Position numbers and translations under genes: made by a program. Below are positions 626 to 42,528 of a stretch of DNA of 54,710 nucleotides, in pieces. This DNA comes from Anaerolineaceae bacterium (GTDB lineage: Bacteria > Chloroflexota > Anaerolineae > Anaerolineales > Anaerolineaceae). The notes beneath the pieces were generated by a model that saw nothing but the letters and a program-made list of their open reading frames with translations, searched no databases and was not told the DNA's origin. The stretch covers positions 1-54,710 of the forward strand of contig JAHYJK010000006.1 of NCBI GenBank assembly GCA_019429225.1, written 5' to 3'. Every line of letters starts with the position of its first letter. Position 1 is the stretch's first letter.

Positions 626-2785
626 ATGAAAATTATCTCAACTCAAGAAATTAAAGCCTCCCATAAGATATTAGCTGATTATTCATATGACATAAATAAA
701 GTTGTTAATGGTTATTCAAATCGAACACTTTATATTGATCTGGGTAAGTTAAAAATTGAAAGTAAACCTCTATCTCAAAAAACGAAAGATATATTTACAG
801 GGGGAAAGGGTTTTTGTCTTTGGTTATTATGGAATGGAACAAGTCCTTCTACGAAATGGGATGATCCAGAAAATGAATTGGTTTTTTCGTTAGGACCAAT
901 TGGTGGTATCACCATGTATCCCGGCAGTGGAAAAGTTACTGTTACAACAATTTCACCCTTGACTCAATCTGTGGTTGACAGTAATGGTGGTGGTTATTTT
1001 GGTCCTTATCTTAAATTTGCTGGTTGGGATGCTCTGGAGATACAAGGCAAAGCAGATCAGGAAGTAGTCATTTTTATCGATGGTGATAGTGGCCAGGTTA
1101 GGATCGAAGCTGCTCCATTAGATCCTGTTGACACTCATCTTGTCAATACCTTATTAACAAACATGTTCGCGAAAGATGAAAAAGATAAAAGAAACATCTC
1201 GGTCATCTCGGCTGGTCAAGCAGCAGAATATATTCCGATTTGTGGATTGAATATTAGTTATTTTGACCCCAAAAGAAATGAAGTGCGTTATAAACAAGCA
1301 GCCCGTGGGGGAGCCGGAACAGTATTGAGAAATAAACATATCAAAGCAATCATAGTTCGTTACAGTGGATTATCAGCCAACAGTAACGGGGTTGCAAACA
1401 TGGAATTATTGCGTAAAGCAGGATCGAGAATAAACAAGGAAATTACAACTTTTGATGCATCTCAAAATGATATGCGCCATACTGGGACTCCTTACCTGGT
1501 AGATATTATGAATCGGTTTGATTTATTACCGACTCATAACTTTAAGTATGGGTCTCATGCTGATTCCTATAAAATTGCCGGGGATATTTGGAAAAAAAGA
1601 TTCGATCACAGTGGGCCAGATGGTTGCTGGTATGGTTGCACAATGTCGTGCGCACACGGAGTAGCTCATTATCATTTGAGGACAGGACCTTACAAAGGAA
1701 ATGCAGTTTTTGTTGATGGACCAGAATACGAGACTCTTGGTGGGTTAGGATCAAATATTGGTGTTTTTGCACCAGAAGATATATTAGAAATGAATTTTTA
1801 CGCTGATACATATGGAATCGATACAATTTCTCTAGGGAATTCGATTGCGTTTGCAATGGAATGTTATGAATTAGGAATCCTTGATAAAGAAAAGACTGGT
1901 GGATTAGAGTTAGTTTGGGGAAATTCTGATGCTGCGCTTGACCTGGTACACCAAATGGCTAAAGGAGAAGGATTCGGTCTGGTTGTGGGTCAGGGTGTAC
2001 GAGCTATGAAACAAATCTTCGTTGAGAAATTTGGAGCTGATCCGAAGATTTTACAGGATATTGGGATGGAAATAAAAGGCATGGAGATATCTGAATACAT
2101 ATCAAAAGAATCGATAGCACAGCAAGGTGGATTCGCTTTAGCATCAAAAGGGGCACAACATGATGAAGCCTGGTTAATTTTCATGGAAATGGTGCACAAA
2201 CAATTGCCAACTTTTGAGGACAAAGCAGAGGCGTTACATTATTTTCCCATGTGGAGAACATGGTTCAGTCTGCATGGTTTGTGTAAACTACCATGGAATG
2301 ACATCATCCCTGAAAGTAACAAAACTGCAACTGAACCTGCTAAAGTTCCAGAACATGTAGAGAATTACACCTGGTTATATGAAGGCGTCCTCGGAAAAAA
2401 GATCACTCCTGATGAGATTATTGAACAATCCGAAAAGGTTTACAACTTTCAAAGGTTATTTAACCTTCGACTGGGGTTTGGAACCAGAGAACATGATTAT
2501 CCTCCATATCGGGCTATGGGACCTGTAACAACCGATGAATATGAATCGAGGCTGGACCTGTACGATACTGAATTAGAAGGTATCGGCTTAAAAATCGATA
2601 ATCTAACCACGATTGAGAAAGTTGAAGCATTACGGCAATATCGGGAAAATCGTTATGAGAAATTGGTTGAGGCTGTTTACAAAAGGCGTGGATGGACAAA
2701 AAATGGTATTCCAACATTTGAGACTGTCAAAAGACTGGGGATTGATTATCCTGAAATATTAAATCTCATTGAAAAAAATATATAA
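626..2785 (+). CDS. Aldehyde:ferredoxin oxidoreductase (AOR) family tungsten enzyme
   Basis: AOR N-domain pattern (YSNRTLYIDLGKLKIESKPL...GGKGFCLWLLW, GPIGGITMYPGSGKVTVTTISPLTQ, GYFGPYLKFAGWDALEIQGKA); Cys cluster CWYGCTMSC plus later Cys; RBS AGGAG upstream. Confidence 0.9.
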   Translation: MKIISTQEIKASHKILADYSYDINKVVNGYSNRTLYIDLGKLKIESKPLSQKTKDIFTGGKGFCLWLLWNGTSPSTKWDDPENELVFSLGPIGGITMYPGSGKVTVTTISPLTQSVVDSNGGGYFGPYLKFAGWDALEIQGKADQEVVIFIDGDSGQVRIEAAPLDPVDTHLVNTLLTNMFAKDEKDKRNISVISAGQAAEYIPICGLNISYFDPKRNEVRYKQAARGGAGTVLRNKHIKAIIVRYSGLSANSNGVANMELLRKAGSRINKEITTFDASQNDMRHTGTPYLVDIMNRFDLLPTHNFKYGSHADSYKIAGDIWKKRFDHSGPDGCWYGCTMSCAHGVAHYHLRTGPYKGNAVFVDGPEYETLGGLGSNIGVFAPEDILEMNFYADTYGIDTISLGNSIAFAMECYELGILDKEKTGGLELVWGNSDAALDLVHQMAKGEGFGLVVGQGVRAMKQIFVEKFGADPKILQDIGMEIKGMEISEYISKESIAQQGGFALASKGAQHDEAWLIFMEMVHKQLPTFEDKAEALHYFPMWRTWFSLHGLCKLPWNDIIPESNKTATEPAKVPEHVENYTWLYEGVLGKKITPDEIIEQSEKVYNFQRLFNLRLGFGTREHDYPPYRAMGPVTTDEYESRLDLYDTELEGIGLKIDNLTTIEKVEALRQYRENRYEKLVEAVYKRRGWTKNGIPTFETVKRLGIDYPEILNLIEKNI

Positions 2786-2913: not shown

Positions 2914-2960
2914 TGGACAGAAAGAACTAAATCGAATAAACTCAAAAAATGGAATAGGAA

Positions 2961-3098
2961 AGCGCATGACTTTGCACTCTGCAAAGTGACGAGGATGAAG
3001 GTTCCCCAATGCGAATTGGGGTTAACTGAACGAGAAATCTCTGGTTCAGGAAAATCGAAAGGTCAGCGGAAGCCTTCCTGGTGAAATCACCTGTGCCT
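2961..3098 (+). ncRNA. glmS ribozyme-riboswitch in the glmS 5' UTR, with additional inserted hairpins
   Basis: AGCGC at the expected cleavage end; P1-like stem ACTTTGCA-ctc-TGCAAAGT followed by GTGACGAGGATGAAGGTT; later ATCGAAAGGTCAGCGGAAGCCTTCC; matches remembered conserved core (GACGAGG...GGUU...AUCGA...CGG...GCC) of Bacillus/Thermoanaerobacter glmS ribozymes; sits directly upstream of glmS. Confidence 0.9.
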
Positions 3099-3149
3099 AT
3101 TCAGACAATAAAATTTGTAATTTTTTCCTGAAAAAGCGGAGGTTTTTTT

Positions 3150-4991
3150 ATGTGTGGAATTGTTGGATATATTGGTAGTCAGAATGCTACACCCATCATC
3201 TTAAATGGATTAAAAAAATTAGAGTATCGTGGATATGATTCTGCCGGAATTGCTGTATTACAGGGAGGAAAAATTGAGATTCGCAGAGATACTGGAAAAT
3301 TAAATAAATTAAATGCAATGGTTTCTTTACAACCATTAGAAGGTCACTTAGGTATTGGGCATACGCGCTGGGCAACGCATGGGATGCCAACGGCTGAAAA
3401 CGCTCATCCACATATCGGTAGCACCGGTGAGGTTGTTGTAGTCCATAACGGTATTGTGGAAAACTTCATGGAATTAAAAGAGGAGTTAACTGCGGAAGGT
3501 GTGAAATTTAAATCAGAGACGGATACAGAAACGATCGTTCATCTGATCGAAATGTATATGGGAACCGGTGATGATTTTGAGAAAGCAACGACCAGTGCTT
3601 TGAGGCGGTTAAAAGGGGCACATGGAATAGTAACCTTCACGACCAGAGAGCCTGATAAAATAATTGCCGCAAGAATTGGCAATGCCGGTGGTGTGGTTGT
3701 AGGTTTCGGTGATGAAGGAAATTTCGTTGCTTCAGACATACCCGCCATCCTCGAACATACCCGGAAAATGATTTTTCTGGATTCGGAGCAAATGGTGATC
3801 ATTAAAAAAGATTCGGTGCGTATTCAGGATTTTGATTGCAATCCAATTACACCCGAGATACACATGATCTCCTGGGATCCGGTTTCTGCTGAAAAAGGTG
3901 CGTATCGCCATTTTATGCAAAAAGAAATTCACGAGCAGGTGCGGTCATTAACCGATACACTGGCTGGTAGAGTAGATTTTGATAATGGACGTATTCAAAT
4001 TCCGCAATTGAATCTGGATAAAGAATTAGCGAATAGAATTGAGAAAATCGTCATTACTGCCTGTGGAACAGCAGCCTACGCTGGTATGGTGGGGAAAATC
4101 TTAATAGAATATATTGCAAAAATTCCAGTTGAAGTCGAAATTGCCTCTGAATTTCGCTATCGAGATCCTTTGATCAATTCAAACACAGTTGTGTTGGCCA
4201 TCAGCCAATCAGGTGAGACTGCTGATACATTAGCAGCGATGGAATTAGCCAGGCGTAAGGGGGCCATTCTCTGGTCGAATGTAAATGCAATTGGCTCTCA
4301 AGTAATGCGAATTTCCGATGGTTATATATCCATGCAAACTGGTCCGGAAATTGGAGTGGCTTCTACAAAGGCATTTACTGCTCCTTTGGCGGATTTATAT
4401 ATGCTTGCGGTCCTTCTGGCAGATTTAAGGGGAGTTATCAACCAGGATGAAAGAAAAAAGTTGGTTTCGGATTTGCGACTGGTACCTGCTTTGGTCGGAA
4501 AAGTGCTTGAGCAAGATGAAGTAATCCGGAATATTGCTAAAGAATTCAAATTCATAAAAAACTCACTATACTTAGGACGTGGTATCAATATGCCGATTGC
4601 TTATGAAGGCGCATTGAAACTCAAGGAAATTTCGTATATCCATGCAGAGGGCTATCCTGCTGGCGAAATGAAGCATGGTCCCATCGCTTTAGTAGATAGA
4701 GATATGCCTATTGTTGCAATCGCTCCGAAAGATCCCTGGTATGACAAGATGATAAGCCAGATTGAACAGGCAAAGGCTAGAGGGGGTAGTGTTATTGCGG
4801 TAGCAACCGAAGGTGATGAGAAAATAAAAGAACTGGCTGACCATGTATTCTGGATTCCTGAAACCCCATGGTTATTGAGCCCAATCATTACAGTTGTACC
4901 TCTACAATTATTTGCTTACCACATCGCCTCTCTTAGAGGTTTGGATGTAGATCAACCCAGGAATTTGGCAAAATCGGTAACTGTAGAGTAG
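3150..4991 (+). CDS. glmS: Glutamine--fructose-6-phosphate aminotransferase (isomerizing)
   Basis: MCGIVGYIG N-terminal Cys glutaminase, SIS domains, C-terminal LAKSVTVE. Confidence 0.98.
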   Translation: MCGIVGYIGSQNATPIILNGLKKLEYRGYDSAGIAVLQGGKIEIRRDTGKLNKLNAMVSLQPLEGHLGIGHTRWATHGMPTAENAHPHIGSTGEVVVVHNGIVENFMELKEELTAEGVKFKSETDTETIVHLIEMYMGTGDDFEKATTSALRRLKGAHGIVTFTTREPDKIIAARIGNAGGVVVGFGDEGNFVASDIPAILEHTRKMIFLDSEQMVIIKKDSVRIQDFDCNPITPEIHMISWDPVSAEKGAYRHFMQKEIHEQVRSLTDTLAGRVDFDNGRIQIPQLNLDKELANRIEKIVITACGTAAYAGMVGKILIEYIAKIPVEVEIASEFRYRDPLINSNTVVLAISQSGETADTLAAMELARRKGAILWSNVNAIGSQVMRISDGYISMQTGPEIGVASTKAFTAPLADLYMLAVLLADLRGVINQDERKKLVSDLRLVPALVGKVLEQDEVIRNIAKEFKFIKNSLYLGRGINMPIAYEGALKLKEISYIHAEGYPAGEMKHGPIALVDRDMPIVAIAPKDPWYDKMISQIEQAKARGGSVIAVATEGDEKIKELADHVFWIPETPWLLSPIITVVPLQLFAYHIASLRGLDVDQPRNLAKSVTVE

Positions 4992-41109: not shown

Positions 41110-42528
41110 CTAAAAATCGTAATAAGTTTCAATTTCATAAGGATGAGGTCGAATCTGCACTTCTTTGAATTCACTCATCTTTTTAGAAATCCATAAATCA
41201 ATCAGATTTTGAGAGAAAACATTATTCCTAACCAAAAACTCACGATCGTTATCCAACGAAATTAATGCTTCTTCCAGAGAAGAGGGTAATTTTTTAATTT
41301 TGTTCCTTTCTTCTTGGGTCCATGAAAAAATATCTTCATCAAATGGTCCAAATCCATTTTCTTTTGGACTTATTTTGTTAACAATTCCATCGATTCCTGC
41401 CATTAGCATGGCTGCCATTGCTAAATAAGGATTACAAGTTGCGTCTGGGGGACGAAATTCGAACCTGACTTCATCTGGATTGGTGACATATTTAGGAATC
41501 CGAATCGCTGCGCTTCTGTTTCCACGGGAAAAAAAAGCGTTTACAGGTGCTTCGTATCCAGGAACGAGTCTGCGATAACTATTTGTGCTTGGGTTCGTAA
41601 ATGCAAGTAATGCAGGTGCATGATAAAGCAAACCACCGATGTAATATAAAGCAGTTTCGCTCAGAAGATTCTCAGATTCTGAATCATAAAAAATATTGGT
41701 ATTACCTTTTCTGATTTGCTGGTGAAAGTGCATTCCATTTCCAGCTTCTCCAAAAAGTGGTTTAGGAAGAAATGTTATTGAGAGATTATCCTGAAAAGCA
41801 GTCATTTTAGTGATGTATTTAATCAACATAGAAGCATCGCCAGCTTTGAGAATTCCTAATAGAGGTGTTTCTATTTCTTGTTGACCAGGTCCACCGACTT
41901 CATGGTGATGATATTTAAACGGTACCCCCATTTTTTCGAGATTGTCAGCCATTTTTGCCCTAACCGAAAAATATCGATCTTTTGGAGGAATTGCGTGGTA
42001 CCCAACATGATAAGCGTTAACATAACCATTCCCAATATATTTTGAATTCCAAAGCCCTTCTTCAGAATTTAATAAATATCGAGATTCATTCATGTTATTT
42101 TGAAATGAAACTTCATTGAAAATATAAAATTCGAACTCTGGTCCCCAAATACTTTGATCGGCGATTTGGGTTTCCTGCAAATACATTTCTGCTTTTCTAG
42201 AAATTTCTCTTGGCTCATCGCGGAAAAGCACTTTTGAATCAGCTTCCACTGTGTTACAAATAAAACTGAGGGTTGGAATATCCCAAAAAATATCAATGAA
42301 TGCAGTTGATAAATCAGGAATTAGTGCCATGTCTCCAGAGTGAACATTCAAGAATCCAACACTGGAGCCATCAAACCCAATCCCATTTTCCATTAATTCG
42401 GCAGTAAATTCCTTAGCAGAGATGGTTACATGATGCCATTTTCCCCATAAATCACAAAACTTGAGATCAAGCATTCTAATTTGTTTTAATTTTATGAATT
42501 CTTCAGCATCTAAAAAATTGGCAAACAT
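41110..42528 (-). CDS. glnA: Glutamine synthetase type I
   Basis: IGFDGSSVGF, GPEFEFYIF, GNGMHFHQ, NRSAAIRIP, EFRPPDATCNPYLAMAAMLMAG. Confidence 0.95.
   Translation of the reverse strand: MFANFLDAEEFIKLKQIRMLDLKFCDLWGKWHHVTISAKEFTAELMENGIGFDGSSVGFLNVHSGDMALIPDLSTAFIDIFWDIPTLSFICNTVEADSKVLFRDEPREISRKAEMYLQETQIADQSIWGPEFEFYIFNEVSFQNNMNESRYLLNSEEGLWNSKYIGNGYVNAYHVGYHAIPPKDRYFSVRAKMADNLEKMGVPFKYHHHEVGGPGQQEIETPLLGILKAGDASMLIKYITKMTAFQDNLSITFLPKPLFGEAGNGMHFHQQIRKGNTNIFYDSESENLLSETALYYIGGLLYHAPALLAFTNPSTNSYRRLVPGYEAPVNAFFSRGNRSAAIRIPKYVTNPDEVRFEFRPPDATCNPYLAMAAMLMAGIDGIVNKISPKENGFGPFDEDIFSWTQEERNKIKKLPSSLEEALISLDNDREFLVRNNVFSQNLIDLWISKKMSEFKEVQIRPHPYEIETYYDF

Follow-up and report, generated by a model that had tools for sequence, protein, structure and literature searches.

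The stretch of Anaerolineaceae DNA analysed in this work (54,710 nucleotides; genome G000, contig C187; hereafter the window) raises the question of what kind of RNA is encoded 5' of its glmS gene. An initial annotation had described it as a glmS ribozyme expanded by two additional hairpins 5' of AUCGA, with a reduced 3' domain. Every element named there was found at the position given for it, with a glmS gene (TIGR01135) 3' of the ribozyme, and the comparative evidence agrees with the proposed architecture: judged by sequence and comparison, positions 2950-3120 are a glmS-type ribozyme 5' of glmS. The limits are best widened to about 2952-3102, so that a further helix, P0, falls inside. In the following list residues are numbered after PMC7125110 (the mapping onto the window was made in this analysis), and A3 denotes the alignment of 16 relatives, with the window left out, that constitutes our covariance model R1.

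2952-2958, plus strand: P0 5' strand GAATAGG, 7 bp with 3096-3102, directly 5' of the cleavage site
2961-2962, plus strand: predicted cleavage dinucleotide A(-1)/G1, from sequence; the cleaved bond is inferred from homology
2962-2968, plus strand: GCGCAUG, P2.2 5' strand; C2, G3 and C4 paired, A5 with A53, G7-C52
2969-2987, plus strand: P1 hairpin, arms ACTTTGCA/TGCAAAGT; both-sided changes in 5 of 6 pairs
2988-2994, plus strand: GACGAGG, comprising G26, A27 and the P2.1 5' strand (C28 G29 A30); invariant in A3
2997-3001, plus strand: P2 5' strand GAAGG, partner 3073-3077; compensatory changes
3004-3021, plus strand: inserted hairpin A, CCCCAAT-GCGA-ATTGGGG, 7 bp with GCGA loop; compensatory changes in 7 of 7 pairs
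3022-3025, plus strand: joint UUAA between hairpins A and B; conserved, YUAA or CCAA in relatives
3026-3049, plus strand: inserted hairpin B, CTGAAC...GTTCAG, length variable; compensatory changes in 3 of 3 basal pairs
3050-3058, plus strand: GAAA joint and AUCGA (P2.1 3' strand / cofactor pocket strand); AAAAUCGA invariant in A3
3054-3058, plus strand: ATCGA within the preceding part, from sequence
3063-3069, plus strand: UCAGCGG, P2.2 3' strand (C52-G56) and G57, from alignment and covariation table
3073-3077, plus strand: P2 3' strand CCUUC; compensatory changes
3080-3091, plus strand: reduced P3 hairpin GGUG-AAAU-CACC, from the fold; no P4 domain after it
3096-3102, plus strand: P0 3' strand CCUAUUC, from pairing test and genus covariation
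3138-3142, plus strand: glmS Shine-Dalgarno sequence (SD) GGAGG, from sequence
3150-4991, plus strand: glmS, glutamine--fructose-6-phosphate transaminase (isomerizing); TIGR01135, 788.7 bits against a cut-off of 418

The mapping yields G1 C2 G3 C4 A5 U6 G7, with GACGA at 26-30, AUCGA at 42-46 and CAGCGG at 52-57. P2.1 has been described as residues 28-30 paired with 43-45, the latter being part of the cofactor pocket, and P2.2 as C2-G56, G3-C55, C4-G54, C5-G53 and G7-C52 with residue 6 bulged (PMC7125110). The double pseudoknot formed by P2.1 (28-30/43-45) and P2.2 (C2-G56, G3-C55, C4-G54, G7-C52) is present in full in the window; in A3, P2.1 and the canonical P2.2 were 100% paired and invariant, and thus lack independent support from covariation. 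As expected of RF00234, the RNA lies in the glmS 5' UTR, with 188 nt between G1 and the glmS start. A(-1)G1 is followed by C2 and G3, likewise as expected: AGCG lies at 2961-2964 and showed no variation in the alignments, A3 included. The expected helices P1 and P2 are supported by compensatory changes, and when the segment 2950-3104 was folded as a single strand none of 200 shuffled sequences was as stable (z=-3.92). The criterion of a 3' P3/P3.1/P4 domain is not met: P3, which differs within the genus (e.g. GATGG/CCATC), has 4 bp in the window, and P4, which supports the canonical glmS ribozyme core, does not follow it. By a crude pattern, a P4-like loop motif was detected in 1 of 17 Anaerolineaceae glmS copies and in 12 of 18 in a sister family. 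We counted the P4 domain as peripheral rather than defining because an active 66-nt core without P4 has been assayed (PMC7125110).

A default Rfam scan of the whole window gave no match at all. The RF00234 scan that the initial annotation had named as a check gave a divided answer when run locally: the match extended over all 167 model positions (25.8 bits, E=2.4e-4), and it remained under the gathering score of 37. Such variants can therefore escape annotation, although relatives with the same architecture (e.g. G248, G255 and G200) are above that score. Model R1 matched the window with 100.9 bits (E=1e-23).

RF00234 matches were obtained in 136 of 400 genomes of the phylum, and R1 matches in 231 of 396 genomes of the class Anaerolineae and 113 of 147 genomes of the window's family. 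The cultured Anaerolineaceae species Bellilinea caldifistulae also has a copy (L217). Two loci from another family of the phylum, L028 and L032, have both hairpins (R1 98.9 and 92.9 bits), whereas other members of that family are without them (R1 31-51 bits). Within the window's family, none of the 14 listed genomes of genus g4 (e.g. G176, G431, G441) gave an R1 match, and a more sensitive search of three of them was likewise negative; the ribozyme was probably lost in this genus. One could suppose from the score below the Rfam threshold that the resemblance to the glmS ribozyme is fortuitous, but this is already contradicted by the adjoining glmS gene, the 100.9 bits with an independent model, the covariation and the occurrence in hundreds of genomes, and can practically be ruled out. 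As far as can be told from sequence, core, location and homology all identify the window RNA as a glmS ribozyme that has lost one peripheral feature (P4) and gained three. With RF00234 as known from B. subtilis and T. tengcongensis it shares A(-1)/G1, P1, P2, P2.1, P2.2, the AUCGA pocket strand and the place before glmS; it differs by two hairpins between the P2 5' strand and AUCGA, by P0 across the cleavage site and by the missing P4. We estimate the probability that it is an Anaerolineae-type glmS ribozyme with canonical double-pseudoknot core, taken together with the full explanation developed below, at roughly 85 per cent; GlcN6P binding, cleavage and repression are inferred.

To characterize the insertion, 41 class matches were collected, and 40 sequences, window included, were parsed. 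Their common order is leader - AGCG - P1 - GACGAGG - P2 5' strand - GUU - hairpin A - YUAA in the 5' half and hairpin B - GAAA - AUCGA - UCRGCGG - P2 3' strand - P3 - P0 3' strand in the 3' half. The insertion separates the P2 5' strand from AUCGA and, since AUCGA is the pocket strand by numbering, lies just 5' of the pocket strand. With fixed anchors, the arms of hairpin A were 90% paired with their own partner and 67% with swapped partners, those of hairpin B 95% and 55%, respectively (0/5000 permutations in both cases). In A3, 98.7% of the cells were paired (99.1% for hairpin A), compared with 77.2% after shuffling and 32-48% with partners slid; the covariation score was 0.673 compared with 0.216 for shuffled alignments (0/500) and at most 0.152 for slid partners. 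The permutation tests ignore the kinship of the sequences, for which the slid controls and the genus-level changes in P0 (see below) partly correct. The covariation of both inserted hairpins across relatives, which the initial annotation had left to be checked, was borne out by compensatory changes in 10 of 10 modelled pairs. Its mention of an apparent GNRA loop holds for the window (GCGA) and for many relatives, not for all: several have other loops, which rules out GNRA as a defining mark of hairpin A.

Across the class hairpin A retains roughly 7 bp and in most cases ends in a GNRA loop, with YUAA and GAAA preserved as joints. This conservation suggests that these elements have a fixed spatial role such as docking. 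Alternatively, both hairpins could be neutral decoration of a tolerant joint, without functional role, as might be thought from the length of hairpin B, which among relatives can be as short as 11 nt or as long as about 80 nt, from relatives in the phylum that have neither hairpin, and from a Clostridia glmS ribozyme with only one hairpin at the same joint. The class-wide uniformity of hairpin A and its joints does not fit such a view, which we consider rather doubtful without dismissing it. The Clostridia ribozyme (L179, minus strand, 4691-4776, from a goat rumen metagenome) carries the single GNRA hairpin GGGGC-GAAA-GCCCC, which may represent an intermediate or have been gained independently. 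The glmS ribozyme of L024 (1501-1709) has a long insertion elsewhere, between AUCGA and AUCAGCGG (P2.1 and P2.2 strands).

The window's genome contains a second, divergent copy of the ribozyme (RF00234 34.8 bits, R1 72.6 bits), which precedes a type-I glutamine synthetase gene, glnA (TIGR00653, 548.6 bits, cut-off 429). By a hand count of the listing, R1 matches two or three times in 77 of the family's 113 matching genomes, and twice in each of the eight listed genomes of the window's genus. Seven second copies noted at first in the family and 31 further ones were checked; among the latter glnA was downstream in 30, and the last one stops at a contig edge. All 37 second copies with enough downstream sequence (that of the window's genome and 36 other family loci) are thus located before glnA. 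Another type-I glutamine synthetase gene of the same genome lies in the window itself (41113-42528, minus strand; TIGR00653, 512 bits). It is not the ribozyme-linked glnA, which is on contig C181, and neither the Rfam scan nor R1 detected a ribozyme near it.

The glnA copies carry GCG[G/A]CUG. When P2.2 covariation was tabulated for 71 loci, C5 occurred with G53 (13/13), A5 with A53 (28/28) and, in the glnA copies, R4-C5-U6 with A53 (30/30); two copies, GCGCACG and GCGCAAG with A53, are exceptions to the U6 pattern. These data fit a predicted glnA-type P2.2 in which the bulge has moved to position 4, with C5-G54, U6-A53 and G7-C52. The same shift is known from mutants of the T. tengcongensis core, in which C4A was rescued about 24-fold by A6C and position 4 was read by the authors as bulged out (PMC7125110); in the natural glnA-type RNAs it is fixed as R4-C5-U6 with A53. 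P1 of the glnA copies starts one base later than in other copies, which explains their poor result in a fixed-register P1 test. A bulge-shifted P2.2 is to our knowledge otherwise known only from mutants, and the glnA-type RNAs would be natural, fixed examples of it.

The earlier reading was incomplete in that it missed P0, the class-wide distribution and the paralogous copies at glnA and other genes. P0 is formed by 2952-2958 (GAATAGG) and 3096-3102 (CCTATTC), that is, by the leader 5' of the cleavage site and the strand after P3, and is absent from the RF00234 consensus structure. Since the P0 3' strand came out misplaced in MAFFT alignments extending over the 3' part, the helix was tested by comparing own with swapped pairing. 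Over 72 loci the own strands gave -9.90 kcal/mol and the swapped ones -7.48 (sd 0.22) kcal/mol (0/5000), and P0 was 5-10 bp long in 68 of the 72. The same swap test gave no signal for P0 in 12 relatives without the insert (4842/5000). Two-sided changes were observed within the window's genus (AATAGG/CCTATT, GATAGG/CCTATC, TTTAGG/CCTAAA).

After cleavage the 5' product would be held by P0 only, which may assist folding, slow the release of the product or act on an expression platform. In sister family f2 the P0 3' strand continues as CTTTCCCTCCRR, the CCTCCRR part of which can pair with the glmS SD region (GGAGG and upstream bases) in 18 of 18 loci; the swap test for this pairing was weak, with 181/5000 in f2 and 287/5000 in the glnA copies. 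Removal of the leader lowered predicted SD access by at least 0.12 in ten loci. In the window, predicted SD access was 0.40 uncleaved and 0.27 cleaved, with no evident anti-SD strand. A simple model in which the P0 3' strand, released by cleavage, masks the SD at every locus was rejected: access fell in the ten loci, whereas most showed no drop and the window no clear one. For f2 alone, masking after cleavage is a suggestive hypothesis. Terminator-like hairpins were found by a crude pattern 3' of 15 of 30 glnA copies and of none of 42 glmS copies, and downstream steps may therefore differ between the two types. Pairing with the SD in f2, the ten leader-sensitive loci, these hairpins and the possibility that P0 keeps the 5' product attached would also suit a descendant of the glmS ribozyme that has lost cleavage and regulates like an ordinary riboswitch by means of P0 and the following strand, by SD pairing or a terminator. 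Such an RNA is quite improbable, however: A3 shows no variation at A(-1)G1, C2-G56 or P2.1, in keeping with catalysis, and the window lacks an evident anti-SD strand.

GlmS consumes glutamine. In the glmS class GlcN6P binds and joins in catalysis, the RNA is cleaved at A(-1)/G1 and loss of the mRNA follows (PMC9971707, PMC7125110); the same GlcN6P mechanism is inferred for a self-cleaving window RNA because its core is intact. GlcN6P, the product of GlmS, would serve as cofactor in cutting the bond 2961/2962 and thereby lower glmS expression. As a paralog from the same genome, with the P2.2 bulge at position 4, precedes glnA, the same signal is inferred to restrain glutamine synthesis as well, probably. 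With glnA under a related sensor, glutamine synthesis might be slowed when the amino sugar is plentiful. Most likely, these ribozymes respond to GlcN6P and have been adapted to match amino-sugar synthesis to the supply of glutamine, although both cleavage and ligand are inferred. The close copies before glnA in this and many related bacteria suggest that a sugar-sensing ribozyme has been reused to control nitrogen assimilation. We know of no earlier ribozyme family that links amino-sugar synthesis with nitrogen assimilation; the class-wide variant, with its core hairpins, leader-pairing helix and glnA paralogs, would be the first known to do so.

Genes of other kinds are also preceded by such copies. 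Among 80 named public loci, 48 copies lie before glmS, 12 before glnA and 8 before Ada-like genes; a glutamate-synthase-domain gene is downstream in 3, in L152 at a distance of 1.4 kb. L130, which with 42.8 bits is above the RF00234 gathering score, and L132 are located before glutamate-synthase-domain genes (PF01645). Second copies in f2 precede a gene for an AraC-O6-methylguanine-methyltransferase (Ada-like), often followed by an EamA transporter gene, and in L157 an Ada-type copy stands directly before the EamA transporter gene (read from its first codons). In the Ada-linked copies the G at position 26 is replaced by a pyrimidine and A46 by G. The corresponding core changes, [C/T]ACGAGG and ATCGG, are seen in L133-L145, L162, L169, L175, L185, L188, L193, L203 and L216, where they are followed by GGAAGGGC, a T-rich run and a GGCATGCC-type hairpin; this arrangement is possibly an attenuator, with a ligand that may be altered. 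A copy before a GlcD-like FAD-linked oxidase gene (L116, minus strand, 1501-1630) scored 47.6 bits with RF00234, over the gathering score, and glmS in the same genome has its own copy, L131.

The substitutions at 26 and 46, and the R4 with C5-U6 of all 30 glnA copies, could mean that the copies linked to glnA, Ada-like and glutamate-synthase genes sense another ligand (e.g. glutamine or another amino sugar) instead of GlcN6P. We hold this to be unlikely: AUCG, GCGG and GCG are retained, the shifted bulge is tolerated as a form of P2.2 in bench data (PMC7125110), and the non-glmS copies L130 and L116 have ordinary GCGC cores and exceed the RF00234 gathering score. Beyond the GlcN6P-responsive pair at glmS and glnA, we offer as a tentative proposal, to which we give somewhat less than even odds as a whole, that the glmS ribozyme has diversified within Anaerolineae into a family of regulatory RNAs acting on several genes. 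Its members, some with shifted-bulge P2.2 and the Ada-linked ones changed at 26/46, would control genes for glutamine synthetase, glutamate-synthase-domain proteins, Ada-like proteins and EamA exporters; P0 would couple cleavage or ligand binding to the expression platform, and ligand specificity may be altered in some.

Ribozymes of the glmS class are considered almost uniform and linked to a single gene. Variants from Deinococcus-Thermus with added core stems and changed supporting substructures were reportedly described by McCown, Roth and Breaker (RNA 2011, 17:728), and all but two of the 463 examples in that paper are said to have been in glmS mRNAs. Extra stems as such are therefore not new. 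Unlike the examples reported in that paper, the Anaerolineae set is not almost confined to glmS mRNAs, and it differs from the RF00234 class in that further copies are located 5' of glnA, glutamate-synthase-domain and Ada-like/EamA genes. A search of the literature, restricted to open-access papers and not covering subscription ones, found nothing relevant on glmS ribozymes in Chloroflexi/Anaerolinea or with glnA, and PMC9971707 presents the class solely as a control of GlmS production. Within the searchable open literature the Anaerolineae architecture, P0 and the glnA/glutamate-synthase/Ada gene set are new, as they are not described there. The set would provide a direct way to test the recruitment of an RNA enzyme to new genes.

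Near the glutamate-synthase-domain gene of L132 a T-box leader-like match was also observed (2329-2572, plus strand), with 81.5 bits against a gathering score of 93.
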